Assembly (NCBI GenBank): GCA_015523545.1
Contig: WAKB01000003.1
Location: 1-62,813, forward strand
From: Candidatus Geothermarchaeota archaeon
GTDB taxonomy: Archaea > Thermoproteota > Nitrososphaeria > Geothermarchaeales > JDFR-13
Direction: 5' to 3'
Length of the DNA stretch: 62,813 nt
Positions 2,917 to 40,165 of the stretch are shown here, one piece after another. The notes under the pieces were generated by a model that was not told where the DNA came from, made no database searches, and saw only the letters and a program-made list of their open reading frames with translations. Position numbers and translations under genes: made by a program. The stretch's first letter is position 1. Each line of letters opens with the position of its first letter.

Positions 2917-4617
2917 ATGCCGGAGATAGATCGTGACCTTATCCTGAGATACGCCGCTAGGAATAGGGTGAAGTTTGGGAAGGCTTCTCCGAAGCCCGTC
3001 CTGGGTAAGGTGATGGCGGAGCATCCAGAGTATAGGTCGATTGTGAAGGAGGTTATCAGGGAGGTTGAGAAGGCCGTAGAGAAGGTCAACAGCATGCCTA
3101 TGGAGGAGGTTTTGAAGCTAGCGCCTCCCGAGGAAGAGGAGGGGAGGAAGGAGTCCTCTATACCCAAGCTACCCCCGTTGGAGGGTGCTAGAGAGGGTGG
3201 AGTCGTCACTAGGTTCGCTCCCAACCCCGACTTTGTCCTCCACCTGGGCTCGCTGAGACCCCTTATACTCTCCTATGAGTATGCCAAGATGTATCGGGGA
3301 AGGTTCTACGTTAGGTTTGAGGACACGGATCCCAAGACGAAGCCTCCTAGGGAGGAGTTCTACAGGGGGATTATGGAGGATATTGAGTGGCTCGGTATAA
3401 GGCCTGATGCCTATGTCTATCAGAGTGACCGTCTAGAGCTGTACTACGCTGTTGCTAAGGCCCTCCTCTCTAGTGGGGAGGCCTATGTGTGTCTCTGTGG
3501 ACGGGATGAGTTCAAGAGGTATGTCTCTGAGTCTAGGCCCTGTCCCCATAGGGGCACGCCTCCCGAGGATAATCTAGAGCTCTTCGAGAAGATGTTGACC
3601 GGGGCCTTTGGGGAGGGTGAGGCGGTGCTTAGGATAAAGACTGATCTTGAGCATCCTAACCAGTCTGTCAGGGACTGGGCGGCTATGCGTATTATAGATA
3701 CTTCTAAATATCCACATCCCCGTAAGGGTAGTAGGTATCTCGTCTGGCCCCTATACAACTTCTCCTGTGCCATCGATGACCACTATATGGGGATTACACA
3801 TGTCCTGAGGGGTGCGGAGCATAGGGTGAATGAGGAGAAGCAGAGATATGTCTTTGAGGCGATGGGCTGGGAGCCCCCGATATATGTCCATCACGGTAGG
3901 GTGGCTATACCCGAGGGGATACTAAGCAAGTCCAAGATACTGAGGGGTATTGAGGAGGGTGTCTACACAGGTATTGATGACCCTAGGCTAGCCACTATAG
4001 CTGCCTTTAGGAGGAGGGGCTTTAGGCCTGAGGCCCTCTACAACACGATTCTCAAGACTGGCCTCTCATCATCCATAACCACTATCGACATGTCTATGCT
4101 GTATAGTGAGAATAGGCGGTTGATAGACCCTGTATCCAACAGGTACTATGGAGTCAGAGAGCCGATAATGGTCGAGGCCGAGATAACCGTGGATGAGGCT
4201 ATCGTCTCACTAAGGAAGCATCCAGACCATCCTGAGAGAGGGTCTAGGAAATATGTCTTTAGACGTGGTGTCCATAGACTATATCTGGATAGGGAGGACA
4301 GGGATAGGCTTGGAGGAGGCATGGTTAGACTTATAGGGCTGGGTAACTTCAGGGTTCTCAATGGCTTTAGGCTCGTGATGGTATCCACCTCTGTAGAGGA
4401 GGCTAGGCGTCTGGGGATACCCTTCATACACTGGGTCCCGGAGGGAGGGGCTATACAAGCACGGTTCATCTATCCAGAAGGGATGGTCGAGGGGTATGCC
4501 GAGAGGTACCTCCTAGACGAGGATGTGGGCTCGACGATCCAGTTGGAGAGACTGGGATACTTTAAGATAGAGTCTATGGAGGAGGGTGGTGTAACAGTTA
4601 TATTCACCCATCCATAG
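2917..4617 (+). CDS. gltX: Glutamyl-tRNA synthetase (archaeal type)
   Basis: Class I synthetase charging tRNA-Glu, 566 residues, of the archaeal/eukaryal GluRS-GlnRS type. After an N-terminal helical extension, the catalytic motif reads RFAPNPDFVLHLGSLRP near residue 105, with HLGS standing for HIGH. The second motif is ILSKSKIL near residue 337. The C-terminal half is the beta-barrel anticodon domain of this branch. A Cys/His cluster (CLCGRDEFKRY, CPHRG) sits in the insertion near residue 190. In organisms without GlnRS the archaeal enzyme charges only tRNA-Glu, with tRNA-Gln handled by amidotransfer. No GlnRS or amidotransferase gene is in this window. Confidence 0.95.
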   Translation: MPEIDRDLILRYAARNRVKFGKASPKPVLGKVMAEHPEYRSIVKEVIREVEKAVEKVNSMPMEEVLKLAPPEEEEGRKESSIPKLPPLEGAREGGVVTRFAPNPDFVLHLGSLRPLILSYEYAKMYRGRFYVRFEDTDPKTKPPREEFYRGIMEDIEWLGIRPDAYVYQSDRLELYYAVAKALLSSGEAYVCLCGRDEFKRYVSESRPCPHRGTPPEDNLELFEKMLTGAFGEGEAVLRIKTDLEHPNQSVRDWAAMRIIDTSKYPHPRKGSRYLVWPLYNFSCAIDDHYMGITHVLRGAEHRVNEEKQRYVFEAMGWEPPIYVHHGRVAIPEGILSKSKILRGIEEGVYTGIDDPRLATIAAFRRRGFRPEALYNTILKTGLSSSITTIDMSMLYSENRRLIDPVSNRYYGVREPIMVEAEITVDEAIVSLRKHPDHPERGSRKYVFRRGVHRLYLDREDRDRLGGGMVRLIGLGNFRVLNGFRLVMVSTSVEEARRLGIPFIHWVPEGGAIQARFIYPEGMVEGYAERYLLDEDVGSTIQLERLGYFKIESMEEGGVTVIFTHP

Positions 4618-4625
4618 TAAACTGG

Positions 4626-4633
4626 TTTTTAAG
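4626..4633 (+). promoter_or_regulatory. TATA box for the L7Ae operon
   Basis: TTTTTAAG lies about 43-50 bases before the ATG of rpl7ae in the only non-coding gap here. An archaeal start site about 25 bases downstream would leave a short leader holding the GGGGGTGAGG ribosome site. Seen by eye only. Confidence 0.5.
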
Positions 4634-4675
4634 GCGGGCTATGGATAAGGTTAATAAGGTGTGGGGGTGAGGCAG

Positions 4676-5056
4676 ATGGCCACGCTACCATTCGAGACGT
4701 TCGAGCTTCCAAAGGAGTATCTAGACGCTGCCTATGAAGCCCTTGAGAAGGCGTTGGAGGTCAAGGGTCTGAAGAGGGGTACGAACGAGACTACCAAGGC
4801 GGTTGAGAGGGGTCTCGCCAAGCTGGTATACATAGCTCTAGACGTGGATCCGCCCGAGATTGTTGCTCATCTACCGCTGCTCTGTAAGGAGAGGAAGGTG
4901 CCATACATATTCGTCCCTAGCAAGGCAGAGCTGGGTAAGAGGGCCGGCCTAGACGTGGCCGCGGCCTCTGTAGCCATTATCGACCCTGGTGAGGGGGCTG
5001 ACCTGGTCAACGAGATTATAGACTATCTGAAGAAGAAGGGTTATTTCCAGGGCTGA
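4676..5056 (+). CDS. rpl7ae: Ribosomal protein L7Ae / K-turn binding protein
   Basis: Binds kink-turns in 23S rRNA and also acts as the core protein of box C/D and H/ACA guide RNPs and of archaeal RNase P. The family signature [17 protein letters not shown] is near residue 35, followed by [10 protein letters not shown] and [13 protein letters not shown]. Length 126 residues is typical. ATG 4676 is preferred over GTG 4661 because GGGGGTGAGG lies just upstream. It leads a tight run of rps28e, rpl24e and ndk. Two candidate C/D RNAs in this window would be clients of this protein. Confidence 0.96.
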
Positions 5057-5062
5057 TGAGTG

Positions 5063-5287
5063 ATGTCTGAGGAGAAGTATAAGATGCGGGAGGACATAAC
5101 CCCGGCCGAGGTAATACAGATCGTGGGCCGAACCGGGATGGCCGGGGAGGTCACCCAGGTAAGGGTGAAGATACTGGCTGGGAAGGATAAGGGTAGGGTG
5201 ATAACCAGGAATGTACTCGGTCCAGTGAGGGAAGGCATGATCATAATGCTTAGGGAGACTGAGAGGGAGGCTAGGAAGCTTAAGTAG
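5063..5287 (+). CDS. rps28e: Ribosomal protein S28e
   Basis: Small-subunit protein of 74 residues with an OB-type fold near the mRNA exit. The conserved core reads [20 protein letters not shown], then [20 protein letters not shown]-like sequence (here ending [16 protein letters not shown]). ATG 5063 directly follows an in-frame GTG at 5060; the ATG start gives the usual MSEEK-type N terminus. It sits between rpl7ae and rpl24e, the usual archaeal order L7Ae-S28e-L24e-Ndk-IF5B. Confidence 0.95.
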
Positions 5288-5302
5288 TGGGAGGTGTCTC
5301 CC

Positions 5303-5500
5303 ATGCCAAGTAGCCATACGTGTAGCTTCTGTGGAGCGGAGATCCCACCTGGCAGGGGAGTCATGTATGTACGTAACAACGGAGTTATACTATGGTTCTG
5401 CAGCAGGCGTTGTAGGATAAGTATGCTGGAGTTTGGGCGTGATCCTAGGAAGTTTAAATGGACAGCCAAGTATGTCAAGGGAGGTATTAGGAGGAGATGA
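5303..5500 (+). CDS. rpl24e: Ribosomal protein L24e
   Basis: Large-subunit zinc-ribbon protein of 65 residues. The four zinc cysteines are in CSFCG near residue 7 and FCSRRC near residue 37, and the signature [10 protein letters not shown] follows. ATG 5303 is used; the upstream in-frame GTG 5294 would only add three residues. The stop overlaps the ndk start in an ATGA junction, implying translational coupling. Confidence 0.96.
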
Positions 5501-5910
5501 GTGAGAAGACGCTGGTCTTCCTCAAGCCCATAGCGGTTGAGAGGGGCCTGGTAGGGGAGATAATATCTAGGTTTGAGAGGAAGGGCTTCAAAATCGTGGC
5601 TTTGAAGAGTATTACTGTGACTAGGGAGTTGGCTGAGGAGTTCTACTCGGTTCATAGGGGTAAACACTTCTTCGAGGAACTCGTCTCCAGCCTGGAGGGT
5701 AGGATGATTGTAGCCATGATACTTGAGGGGAGGTCTGCTGTAAAGGTGGTGAGGAAGCTTATTGGGGCTACGGATCCGGTGGAGGCGGAGCCGGGAACTA
5801 TAAGGGGTGACTACGCACTGGATATCACGGAGAATATGGTGCATGCCTCTGACTCGCCTGAGAGCTTTATCCGTGAGGCTAGAATCCTATTCCCCGAGCT
5901 CGGGGTCTAG
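5497..5910 (+). CDS. ndk: Nucleoside diphosphate kinase
   Basis: Transfers the gamma phosphate of ATP to NDPs through a phosphohistidine. The protein has 137 residues, normal for the family. The N-terminal [19 protein letters not shown] is typical, and the active-site histidine lies in [12 protein letters not shown] near residue 115. The start overlaps the rpl24e stop. About 90 non-coding bases follow before the aIF5B gene. Confidence 0.96.
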
Positions 5911-5999
5911 GCCCATCCTGGGAGACTAATATATTCTTTCTACATACCCCTTTTATCGGGTCCTCTCCTAGGGGACGGGGATCATACTCTGCTAGGTGT

Positions 6000-8237
6000 A
6001 TGGAGATGTCTGGGGAGAAGGTTATCAGGCAGCCTATAATAACCGTCCTTGGACACGTGGATAGTGGTAAATGTGTGGGTGGGGATCACTATGTGGATAT
6101 ACATAGTTACATAACGGTGGAGGATCTCTACTACGATGGTGGGTATGTAGAGTCTCTCGACATATCTATCCCGGGGTATGTGAGGAACAGGGTTGGGGAG
6201 GTTGTTAGGGAGGAGGTGGATAAATGGGTATACGTCTCCCTCGACTCTGACAGCCATGTAGAGTCCTCCTTCGAGCATAGGTTCCTAGTGAGACTTAGGC
6301 CTGGTCTTTATCGGTATACTCCAGCCCATAGGCTTAAACCTGGAGATGAGGTGGTTAGCCCTGAGGGGGAGCCTGGGCCTGATGGTCTAGGTACTGTAAG
6401 GGTTCGAAGGGTTGTAAGGCTCTATAGGTCACGTGTCCTGTATGATGTGGAGAGCCCTGGGTATAAGAACTTCGTTGTTAATGGTGTTGTGGCTCATAAC
6501 ACGAGCTTATTGGATAAGATTAGGGGGACCGCTGTACAGCTTAGGGAGGCTGGGGGTATTACCCAGCATATAGGGGCTAGTATGTTCCCGCCGGAGACGT
6601 TGAGGGAGATTTGTGGGCCGCTCCTGGAGAAGTTCGGCTTCGAGATCATCGTACCTGGTATACTTGTTATAGATACGCCTGGCCACGAGGTCTTCTCGAA
6701 CCTTAGGCGTAGGGGCGGCTCCGCCTCTGATATAGCGATACTAGTGGTGGATATTACCAAGGGGTTCCAGCCCCAGACCCATGAGAGCATCCAGATACTT
6801 ATGCAGAGGAGGGTACCCTTCCTAGTAGCCGCTAACAAGGTCGACCTTATACATGGCTGGAGGCCGTCAGGCACCCTCTCAATAATAGAGGCCTTGAAGA
6901 GGCAGAGTAGTGAGACGCTTATCCACCTGGAGGAGAGGATAGGCTACATAATATCCGCTCTGAACACTTATCGCTTCGATGCAGATCGCTTCGACCGTGT
7001 AAGGGACTTTAGGAGGATCGTGGCTATAGTCCCCGTCTCGGCGAAGACTGGGGAGGGTATACAGGAGCTCCTCACGATATTGATAGGCCTTGTCCAGAAA
7101 TTCCTCATTAATAGGCTTGAAGTTGATATTAACAAGCCGGGCTCGGGTACTATCCTAGAGGTCAGCTCAGAGCATGGCCTCGGGAAGGTGGTTAAGGCTA
7201 TACATATCGACGGCACCGTAAGGGTTGGAGACACCTTCATAGCTGTGGGTAGGGATGGGGTGGTTGAGAGGCGTATAAGGTCCATACTTATGCCCGCCCC
7301 CCTCGACGAGCTCAGGGATCCGAGGAAGAGGTTTAGGCAGGTGGAGACGAGCTATCCAGCCGCGGGTATAATCATCGTGGCCCCCGACCTGGACGAGGTA
7401 TATGCTGGATCTCCCTTCTACAGCGTCAGGCCCGGCATGGATGTCTCGATCCCAGACCTCGCCAAGGAGCTGGAGGAGGAGGTGGCCAGTATAAAGATCG
7501 ATACTGATAAGGTTGGTGTCGTGGCTAAGGCCGATACCCTGGGCACCTTGGAGGCCATGATAGCCCAGATGAATAGGAAGGGGATCCCGATCAGGAAGGC
7601 TGATGTTGGGGATGTCTCGAAGAAGGATGTTATCGAGGCGAGTATAGTGAAGGAGAAGGATGTTATCAGGGGTGCTGTACTAGCCTTTAACGTCGATGTA
7701 TTGCCTGATGCGGAGGAGCTTGCTAGGAGTAAGAAGATACCGATCTTCCGGGGTGAGATACTCTATAGGCTCATCGACGACTACTTGGCATGGGTGGAGG
7801 ACTATATCAGGAGGAAGAGGGAGCGCCTATTCCAGAGCCTCGTCAAGCCTGGTAAGATACTGGTGCTCGAGGGGTATGTATTCAGGAGGAGTAAGCCGGC
7901 CATAGTTGGTGTGCGTGTGGAGGCGGGTGAGATCAGGCCTAGGTATAGGCTTATAAGGGGTGATGGAGAGGTGGTGGGGACTATCCACCAGATACAGGAT
8001 CGTGGGAAGGCGATTGATAGGGCGACTCGTGGGATGGAGGTGGCTATAAGCATTAGGGAGGCCGAGGTGGGGGATGACTTCGAGGAGGGTGACTACCTAT
8101 ATGTCTATGTACCTGAGGAGGATGCGAAGACACTTATGAAGGAGTTCCTGGCCGATCTTCCAAGCGACTATAGGGAGGCTCTGGAGGAGTTCTTGGAGAT
8201 TATTAGGAGTAGGAACCCACTCTTTGCACGTGGCTAG
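6000..8237 (+). CDS. infB: Translation initiation factor aIF5B, intein-interrupted
   Basis: Ribosomal-subunit-joining GTPase. The 745-residue ORF encodes a 602-residue host protein once a 143-residue intein (residues 25-167) is removed. The intein splits the P-loop: GHVDSGK before it and TSLLDKIRG after it. The remaining G motifs are DTPGHE, AANKVDLIHGW and a later SAKTGEG. Domains II-IV follow, with the aIF5B-type C terminus. Start ATG 6000 or ATG 6006 is equally possible. Since GTP binding needs the rejoined GKT, activity should depend on splicing. The gene order L7Ae-S28e-L24e-Ndk-IF5B is normal for archaea, so the intein is an insertion in an otherwise ordinary locus. Confidence 0.95.
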   Translation: MEMSGEKVIRQPIITVLGHVDSGKCVGGDHYVDIHSYITVEDLYYDGGYVESLDISIPGYVRNRVGEVVREEVDKWVYVSLDSDSHVESSFEHRFLVRLRPGLYRYTPAHRLKPGDEVVSPEGEPGPDGLGTVRVRRVVRLYRSRVLYDVESPGYKNFVVNGVVAHNTSLLDKIRGTAVQLREAGGITQHIGASMFPPETLREICGPLLEKFGFEIIVPGILVIDTPGHEVFSNLRRRGGSASDIAILVVDITKGFQPQTHESIQILMQRRVPFLVAANKVDLIHGWRPSGTLSIIEALKRQSSETLIHLEERIGYIISALNTYRFDADRFDRVRDFRRIVAIVPVSAKTGEGIQELLTILIGLVQKFLINRLEVDINKPGSGTILEVSSEHGLGKVVKAIHIDGTVRVGDTFIAVGRDGVVERRIRSILMPAPLDELRDPRKRFRQVETSYPAAGIIIVAPDLDEVYAGSPFYSVRPGMDVSIPDLAKELEEEVASIKIDTDKVGVVAKADTLGTLEAMIAQMNRKGIPIRKADVGDVSKKDVIEASIVKEKDVIRGAVLAFNVDVLPDAEELARSKKIPIFRGEILYRLIDDYLAWVEDYIRRKRERLFQSLVKPGKILVLEGYVFRRSKPAIVGVRVEAGEIRPRYRLIRGDGEVVGTIHQIQDRGKAIDRATRGMEVAISIREAEVGDDFEEGDYLYVYVPEEDAKTLMKEFLADLPSDYREALEEFLEIIRSRNPLFARG
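6072..6500 (+). other. Mini-intein inside aIF5B P-loop
   Basis: Protein-splicing element of 143 residues. It begins with Cys (CVGGDHYVDI, block A) and ends with the block F/G sequence LYDVESPGYKNFVVNGVVAHN split here as NFVVNGVV then AHN, followed by Thr as the +1 extein residue. SSFEHRFLV supplies a block B histidine. There is no LAGLIDADG homing endonuclease; the length fits a Hint domain only. The junctions follow from the conserved extein reading GHVDSGK/TSLLDK. Inteins at an IF2 P-loop are known in Euryarchaeota (Thermococcales and Methanocaldococcus), to my recollection; I cannot test relatedness here. Confidence 0.93.
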
Positions 8238-8301
8238 GGCCTAGGCCTTATAATACATACTGCTCCATATAGATAGTTGATTCCCGGGGGTGTAGGTATA
8301 G

Positions 8302-8661
8302 ATGGTCAAGTTCAAGCTAGTCATATCCAACCCTAAGGATGGGACTGCCAAGTCTGTCGAGGTGGATGACCCGGTTAGTAGTAACCTTATAGGTAAGAAG
8401 ATTGGCGACGTGATTGATGGGAGCCTCATCGGGATGGAGGGTGTTAAGCTGAAGATTACAGGGGGCTCCGACAGGTCCGGCTTCCCTATGAGGCCTGATA
8501 TCCAGGGCGGTGTGAAGAAGTATATCTTGACGGGGCCAGGCATCGGGCTCAGGACGATTAAGGGTAAGACTAAGAAGGGTTATAGGCGTAGGATCCTCGT
8601 GAGGGGCAACACCATCACGCCCGATATCTATGAGATAAACATGGTGATTGTGGAGGAGTAG
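8302..8661 (+). CDS. rps6e: Ribosomal protein S6e
   Basis: Small-subunit protein, 119 residues, matching the short archaeal form that lacks the long eukaryotic C terminus. It starts VKFKLVISNPKDGTAKSVEV and contains the family core ITGGSDRSGFPMRPDIQGG and GKTKKGYRRRILVRGNTI. A TATA-like CTTATAAT lies near 8249, and the start follows a GGGGGTGTAGG leader. aIF2-gamma begins two bases after the stop. Confidence 0.96.
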   Translation: MVKFKLVISNPKDGTAKSVEVDDPVSSNLIGKKIGDVIDGSLIGMEGVKLKITGGSDRSGFPMRPDIQGGVKKYILTGPGIGLRTIKGKTKKGYRRRILVRGNTITPDIYEINMVIVEE

Positions 8662-8663
8662 AG

Positions 8664-9914
8664 ATGGCGACCGAGGAGGTGTATAGGGAGGTAGAGATCC
8701 CTAGGCAGCCGGAGCTTAACATAGGCTCCGCCGGGCATGTTGACCATGGTAAGACTACGATTATCCAGGCCTTGACGGGCCGTTGGACAGCCACGCATAG
8801 TGAGGAGCTTAGGAGGGGTATCACGATCAAGATTGGCTATGCCGATATGCCTATCTATAGGTTTAGGAGAGATGGTGAGGAGCTCTACTGGTCTAGGCCT
8901 AGGTATGATGGGTTGGAGGGTGAGCTGGTAAGGGTTGTGAGCTTCGTGGACTGTCCTGGGCATGAGAGCCTCATGGCTAATATGCTCTCTGGGGCTGCTG
9001 TGATGGATGGTGCTATGCTCGTTATAGCTGCTAATGAGCCTGTGCCTAGGCCCCAGACGAAGGAGCATGCGGTGGCCCTAGATATACTTGGTGTTAGGAA
9101 CGTAGTCGTTGTCCAAAACAAGATTGACCTGGTCTCGAAGGAGGAGGCCCTGAAAAACTATGAGGCTATACGTGAGTTCCTCTCCACAACGTCTTTTAGC
9201 GACGCGCCTATCATTCCTGTCTCAGCCATCCATAGGGTAAACCTCACCTATCTAGTGGAGGCTCTCTACAAATATATTCCTCCTAAGGAGAGGGATCCGT
9301 CGAAGCCCCTCATGATGTTCATCATAAGGTCTTTCGACGTGAATAAGCCGGGGACACCCTATAAGGATGTTGTTGGTGGGGTGTTGGGCGGCTCTATACT
9401 AGAGGGTAGGATAAGGGTTGGTGATGAGATAGAGATCCTCCCAGGCTATCTGTACAAGGCTGATGGGGGGATTAGGCATGAGCCTCTCTATGCAGAGGTG
9501 ACGTCCCTGAGTAGTGGGAGGCTCTCCCTAGAGGAGGCCCATCCAGGTGGTCTTGTGGGTGTACAGACCGACCTGGATCCCAGCTTGACTAAGTCTGACG
9601 GTATGGTGGGTAATGTGGCTGGTAAGCCCGGGACACTCCCAGAGGTTCTCTATGAGCTGTCGCTCGAGGTGGAGCTCTTCCAATACGTGATTGGTACTGA
9701 GGAGAGTGTCGAGGTTAGGCCTATATCCAGGGGTGAGCCTCTACGCCTGAATGTGGGGCCCGCGACTACACTGGGCGTCGTTACCAGTATATCGGGTGAT
9801 ACTATCCATCTGAGACTCTCTAGGCCGGTTGTGGCTAGGGAGGGTTGGAGGGCGGCTATAGCGGCTAGGTATGATAATAAGTGGCGCCTCGTGGGTGTAG
9901 GCACCGTTGTATAG
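8664..9914 (+). CDS. eif2g: Translation initiation factor aIF2 gamma subunit
   Basis: GTPase subunit that carries initiator Met-tRNA to the ribosome. The 416-residue protein shows NIGSAGHVDHGKTTIIQALTG (P-loop, near residue 22), the aIF2-specific switch I region ELRRGITIKIGYAD, DCPGHE, and QNKIDLVSKEEA. The Cys-pair zinc knuckle common in many aIF2-gamma proteins is not visible; the region between the switches reads YRFRRDGEELYWSRPRYDG instead, with no cysteines. It overlaps the following PIN-domain gene by 8 nt, a common archaeal neighbourhood. Confidence 0.95.
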   Translation: MATEEVYREVEIPRQPELNIGSAGHVDHGKTTIIQALTGRWTATHSEELRRGITIKIGYADMPIYRFRRDGEELYWSRPRYDGLEGELVRVVSFVDCPGHESLMANMLSGAAVMDGAMLVIAANEPVPRPQTKEHAVALDILGVRNVVVVQNKIDLVSKEEALKNYEAIREFLSTTSFSDAPIIPVSAIHRVNLTYLVEALYKYIPPKERDPSKPLMMFIIRSFDVNKPGTPYKDVVGGVLGGSILEGRIRVGDEIEILPGYLYKADGGIRHEPLYAEVTSLSSGRLSLEEAHPGGLVGVQTDLDPSLTKSDGMVGNVAGKPGTLPEVLYELSLEVELFQYVIGTEESVEVRPISRGEPLRLNVGPATTLGVVTSISGDTIHLRLSRPVVAREGWRAAIAARYDNKWRLVGVGTVV

Positions 9915-40069: not shown

Positions 40070-40163
40070 GCCCCGGTGGTGTAGCCCGGTCAAGCATACC
40101 GGCCTCTCGAGCGTCTTGACCGGTGCGAGCCGGTGAACCCGGGTTCAAATCCCGGCCGGGGCA
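40070..40163 (+). tRNA. tRNA-Glu (CTC) with 18-nt intron
   Basis: Acceptor GCCCCGG pairs with CCGGGGC, D arm GTGTAGCCCGGTCAAGCA, anticodon stem CCGGC/GCCGG, T arm CCCGGGTTCAAATCCCGG, discriminator A, no CCA in the gene. The anticodon loop is 25 nt long instead of 7. Removing 18 nt between two copies of CGAGC restores CTCTCGA, with anticodon CTC; the canonical 37/38 position gives an intron at about 40110-40127. The intron can form a bulge-helix-bulge with the anticodon stem (GACCGGTG), as the archaeal splicing endonuclease requires. Confidence 0.88.
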
Positions 40164-40165
40164 CC

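Follow-up and report, generated by a model that had tools for sequence, protein, structure and literature searches.

The window analysed here is a stretch of 62,813 nucleotides, one entire contig of a Candidatus Geothermarchaeota genome assembly of 1.15 Mb in 17 contigs that is 89.95% complete. It contains the gene for the translation initiation factor aIF5B, which scores 752 bits against the NCBIfam model NF003078 (cut-off 468) and is the only place in the genome above that cut-off. The gene order at positions 2917-9914 is gltX, L7Ae, NDK, aIF5B, S6e and aIF2-gamma, with the initiation GTPases near each other, as in relatives. Elsewhere in the window, a tRNA-Arg(TCG) gene of 96 nt (40070-40165) carries intron-like additional bases 3' of the anticodon, which is ordinary for archaea.

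Table 1. Features of the aIF5B gene, its intein and the neighbouring aIF2-gamma gene in the window
Feature	Position	Strand	Remarks
aIF5B precursor gene	6000..8237	+	745 aa, ATG start, stop-free frame; single copy in the assembly
N-extein	6000..6071	+	24 residues; C-terminal end is P-loop GHVDSGK (6051-6071)
Class 1 mini-intein, endonuclease-free	6072..6500	+	429 bases, 143 residues, ORF Cys25-Asn167
Cys1 (ORF C25)	6072..6074	+	Invariant in 10/10 family inteins
Block B S66-F-E-H69	6267..6278	+	His invariant in 10/10; Ser replaces Thr in the window's genus (4 genomes)
Short linker, intein residues about 99-108	6366..6395	+	Position of the endonuclease in larger relatives
Block F Asp125	6444..6446	+	Invariant in 10/10; subsequent block F His is Lys132 in the window
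His142-Asn143	6495..6500	+	Invariant in 10/10; followed by Thr+1
C-extein	6501..8234	+	Begins with Thr+1, the P-loop Thr (TSLLDKIRG)
aIF2-gamma gene	8664..9914	+	Empty P-loop GHVDHGK-TT; relatives have an intein there

The aIF5B frame is interrupted by an intein. In translation its junctions read GHVDSGK / C...VVAHN / TSLLDKIRG, and the intein parts the P-loop lysine from its threonine. An earlier note on this DNA had described a mini-intein without endonuclease in the aIF5B P-loop, and its coordinates, length, split between GK and TS, Cys1, His-Asn and Thr+1 all proved correct. Excision is predicted to leave an aIF5B of 602 residues (745-143). Cys1, presumably the first splicing nucleophile, and His142-Asn143, which we take to be the C-terminal cleavage residues, are invariant together with H69 and D125 in all ten inteins of the window's family, f1 (alignment A4). 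Block B and block F are named here after the standard intein motifs.

Class 1 membership is indicated by Cys1, by His-Asn followed by Thr+1, by the S-x-x-H of block B, by the block F aspartate and by the exactness of the insert. The histidine of block F, a further class 1 feature, is replaced by Lys132 in the window, which is no bar to membership. This histidine is common but not universal in class 1 inteins, and five of the ten family inteins, the window's included, have Lys, Arg or Asn in its place. Given this substitution and that of the block B threonine, splicing could be slow. The limits of the linker are set by the N-terminal part, alignable through residue 98 (residue 117 of a 522-residue relative), and by the C-terminal part, in which the Pfam match starts at residue 109.

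The best Pfam match of the insert alone is Intein_splicing (E 4.8e-8); at 33.4 bits it is slightly below the curated cut-off of 35.8, and the intein could be overlooked in annotation. Against NCBIfam intein_Cterm the insert scores 15.8 bits (cut-off 15.6). All ten family inteins match Intein_splicing at E<=0.01 (best E 1.5e-18), and profile scans found no LAGLIDADG or other endonuclease domain in any of the ten, the window intein included. A search with their combined profile places the Pyrococcus horikoshii (Pho) RadA intein first among solved inteins (E 4.8e-20). Five sequences went into the AlphaFold2 model of the intein, whose quality is poor (mean pLDDT 57.4). With this low-confidence model Foldseek also ranks the Pho RadA intein first (E 2.7e-4), the top matches being RadA and CDC21 inteins, and among the 50 matches listed all are inteins or hedgehog Hint domains. 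The anatomy, the site and the lack of an endonuclease are direct observations. Chance can be set aside as the origin of the insert, because intein-free orthologues are continuous across the exact junction and purifying selection acts on the insert.

Two other origins of the insert were considered and rejected. An RNA intron does not agree with an insert that is in frame with its flanks in ten of ten cases, has the catalytic residues of an intein and shows the evolutionary pattern of coding sequence; an assembly error does not agree with its presence in ten separate genomes.

The window's order comprises 12 genomes, 11 in family f1 and one (G011) in a sister family. We found aIF5B in ten of the 11 f1 genomes and none in G009, which is 75% complete. 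All ten carry an intein at the P-loop junction, each of them endonuclease-free, with lengths of 143, 143, 152, 152, 146, 168, 167, 170, 170 and 167 residues. The gene is present in one copy in each of the ten, and a DNA pattern search of the window for an empty P-loop gave no match; as the assembly is 89.95% complete, a second, intein-free aIF5B copy could in principle lie elsewhere in this genome. Intein-free relatives, for which the earlier note had proposed a search, are present: the P-loop is uninterrupted in G011, the sole sister-family genome (1/1), and GK-TS is continuous in other members of the class as well. Each of the four genomes of the window's genus has a single Intein_splicing match, the aIF5B intein; two other genomes, G005 and G008, have eight matching places each.

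The class-wide survey covers about 150 of 370 matching class genomes. In family f5, aIF5B-site inteins of 337, 365 and 513 residues occur in three of the four genomes examined. LAGLIDADG_3 matches one of these at 20.0 bits (G026), below the cut-off, and gives no match in the other two (G030 and G032). In family f10, eight of 32 genomes have aIF5B inteins, 21 are without one as judged by frame length, and three (G524, G654, G694) are ambiguous. The five f10 inteins readable to both ends (L141, L143, L145, L146, L147) measure 521-523 residues, and the only one scanned (L141) has an intact LAGLIDADG_3 domain (55.9 bits). One aIF5B match in the ambiguous G694 (G694:C117:2111-3976) has three internal stops and starts within the intein portion of the query; it may be an intein remnant or an assembly fault.

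Of 398 genomes sampled from the phylum, at least 14 (the window's own among them) match the window intein at E<=0.01, a minimum in view of its rapid divergence. Three of these matches are aIF5B P-loop inteins outside the window's class, in G260 (156 residues, L035), G083 (159 residues, L043) and G401 (425 residues, L040), and short aIF5B inteins therefore extend beyond f1. Scanning genome contigs with the aIF5B alignment returned remote archaeal and bacterial IF2s. Every archaeal aIF5B frame with a located P-loop among loci L048-L075 was uninterrupted, and a scan of IMG/VR gave nine remote inteins, none of them recognised as an aIF5B allele.

The host protein also bears on the placement of the organism, which the earlier note had called a crenarchaeon. 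An aIF5B tree with 34 rows joins genomes of the window's class and a named Nitrosopumilus in a clade (98/95) that excludes the named Ignisphaera, DRTY and Desulfurococcales records, and Nitrosopumilus itself groups with family f4 of that class (100/100). This placement, with one gene as its basis, puts the host on the Nitrososphaeria side of Thermoproteota. On this tree the term 'crenarchaeon' would apply only in its old, broad sense.

All ten f1 inteins fall into a single clade in trees of 31 rows (93/88) and 39 rows (99/98), and their aIF5B hosts also form one clade (97/91). These intein trees exclude G629 (GHTDAGK loop), G634 (a run of N and no intein end) and G576, and duplicate loci were used once. 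Intein and host trees share five of seven splits, a value reached in six of 20,000 label permutations. However, the intein tree pairs G006 with G004 (90/85), whereas the host tree pairs G004 with G008 and G010 (100/100), and the positions of G005 and G007 also differ. The window intein and that of its nearest relative, G003, differ by 43 synonymous codon changes, 22 nonsynonymous ones and no stop codon. When these changes were placed at random, 51.5 were nonsynonymous on average, and none of 5,000 simulations gave 22 or fewer. For the same pair, NG86 dN/dS is 0.126 in the intein compared with 0.023 in the exteins, and the odds of a nonsynonymous change are 7-fold higher in the intein than in the extein. 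The intein is thus under clear purifying selection that is weaker than that on its host. Apart from G003, intein identity within f1 is 27-42%, and none of the ten aIF5B frames contains a stop.

The family-wide presence, the single clade and the selection on the intein are again observed directly. Long residence, which the earlier note had supposed from the missing endonuclease, agrees with the presence of the intein in all ten readable f1 genomes, with the single intein clade and with the near-congruent trees; the evidence for it is stronger than the author of that note could have known. From these sequence comparisons, long residence and vertical descent of the f1 intein are well supported.

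Inteins also occur in the P-loops of other proteins of these genomes. In aIF2-gamma they are found at GHVDHGK/T (L148-L158) in four f1, two f5 and five f7 genomes. Mini-inteins at this site measure 164-166 residues in three genomes of the f1 genus g2, 158 and 160 residues in f5, and 146-152 residues in f7, where the observed aIF5B frames have the length expected without an intein; the aIF2-gamma intein of G005 has 257 residues. P-loop inteins with LAGLIDADG are present in EF-2 of G008 (603 residues) and G005 (588 residues; L159, L160). The EF-2 of the window's genome is intein-free judging by its frame length (749 residues), and the other f1 EF-2 frames that were located have a normal length. 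The f1 inteins of aIF2-gamma fall on other branches than those of aIF5B, which makes separate colonisation of the two sites probable. Transposition of an intein from one of these two genes to the other within a genome was rejected, as the f1 inteins sort by host protein and not by genome. In G260 and G401 the aIF5B intein clusters with those of aIF2-gamma, which suggests an independent entry into the aIF5B site. Other families of the phylum have RadA P-loop mini-inteins (L033, L034, L041) and inteins at GPNGSGK or GRNGSGK/C of an ATPase that is presumably SMC/Rad50-like (L037, L038, L039, L045).

Given its anatomy, distribution and descent, the insert is very probably a self-splicing class 1 mini-intein, vertically inherited and descended from an endonuclease-bearing intein, in the P-loop of the only aIF5B. 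From the comparisons above we infer splicing itself and its completeness, and likewise its chemistry, the time of entry and the reason for retention. The P-loop holds the phosphates of GTP, so the precursor should be inactive as a GTPase before splicing, and from P-loop chemistry we infer that splicing must come before GTP binding. The 745-residue precursor would be blind to GTP until the intein is excised. An acyl shift at Cys1 would be followed by transfer to Thr+1 and by cyclisation of Asn143 aided by His142, and GK would be rejoined to TS to give the 602-residue factor. Because the same threonine is the +1 nucleophile and a P-loop residue, purifying selection that maintains the host site maintains the splice site as well. 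In Haloferax volcanii aIF5B is essential (PMC3828320), and splicing is therefore very likely required for life.

An endonuclease-bearing ancestor probably entered aIF5B before f1 diversified. Loss of the endonuclease would have ended homing and left vertical inheritance, and the intein would have been kept because splicing has to function and precise deletions seldom occur. The f1 data fit the homing-cycle model (PMC1654191), which holds that the endonuclease degenerates once the intein is fixed, whereas splicing remains under selection.

An alternative, along the lines of the earlier note, which held that splicing would gate initiation, is that the intein has been domesticated as a switch. 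Splicing would then depend on temperature, redox state or substrate, the precursor would be an inactive reserve, and release of the intein would control initiation, hence its retention across f1. The nearest solved intein in both sequence and fold, the P-loop mini-intein of Pho RadA, is itself conditional in its splicing (PMC5790916). In addition, the aIF5B intein is the sole Intein_splicing match in the window's genus and yet has never been lost, and the changed block F histidine may slow C-terminal cleavage. However, conservation of splicing by itself accounts for the data, and the low identity of the f1 inteins outside G003 picks out no conserved surface; we consider a switch unlikely. It is more doubtful still that the P-loop inteins in translational GTPases of f1, in aIF5B of all readable members and in aIF2-gamma and EF-2 of some, are parasites turned post-translational switches. 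If they were, initiation factors would be made GTP-blind and activated by conditional splicing, and translation capacity would be determined at the protein level.

The presence of the intein throughout f1 might instead reflect repeated recent re-invasion by mobile inteins. The aIF5B site has been entered at least two times in the phylum, as the grouping of the G260 and G401 inteins (85/85) indicates, and in f10, where inteins bear the endonuclease, presence is patchy. However, none of the ten f1 inteins has an endonuclease, and their single clade and the splits shared with the host tree have already weakened this explanation, which we regard as highly improbable. Lowest of all we rate a decaying or poorly splicing intein, with the cell dependent on a minor spliced fraction or on another aIF5B copy. 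The substitutions in blocks F and B, the high nonsynonymous rate compared with the host and the incomplete assembly would agree with it, but the core residues are invariant in all ten inteins, the intein is under purifying selection, all ten frames are stop-free and each f1 genome with the gene has one aIF5B copy.

The aIF5B junction offers a clean natural homing-cycle series at a single site, from f10 with LAGLIDADG_3 intact and patchy presence, through f5, where it has decayed to 20.0 bits or is gone, to f1, where every readable member has the intein and none the endonuclease domain. With ten natural alleles of an intein that is immobile yet present throughout the family, whether it is a relic or a regulator can be tested directly. 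Inteins have inserted into this loop in three paralogous translational GTPases, an observation relevant to the preference of inteins for P-loops. Annotations should list the mature factor with 602 residues rather than 745.

Inteins, the P-loop as their site and the IF-2 site are each already known, the last through NF011418 (PRK14845), a model of 1049 positions for IF-2 with a built-in intein in the same host and at the same junction. Residues 5-46 of the window protein align to NF011418 5-46 and the alignment resumes at model position 443 and continues to the end, but the intein of the model occupies about 450 positions compared with 143 residues here. The window's locus scores 708.8 bits, below the cut-off of 756, and one of the 12 genomes of the order passes. 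The earlier note had attributed known IF2 inteins to Euryarchaeota; this alignment is consistent with a known site, and the members of NF011418 are Euryarchaeota, its founders being Thermococcales and Methanocaldococcus. Literature searches of partial coverage turned up no article dealing with inteins in IF2 or aIF5B, and we make no claim that there is none in print. The nearest solved intein, the Pho RadA mini-intein (2LQM, 4E2T), is also endonuclease-free and in a P-loop, and its splicing is held back by the extein and released by heat or ssDNA (PMC5790916). Its host, however, is a recombinase and not a translational GTPase, the construct has 174 residues compared with 143, and its conditional splicing was measured, whereas the window intein is known from sequence. 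The f10 aIF5B inteins share the junction and an alignable N-terminal splicing part (hhalign probability 97.2, E 4.4e-11) but, unlike those of f1, are large, patchy and endonuclease-bearing. The aIF2-gamma (L148-L157) and EF-2 (L159, L160) inteins occupy the homologous GHVDHGK/T or AHVDHGK/T junction of paralogous GTPases, on branches of the intein tree separate from the f1 aIF5B inteins.
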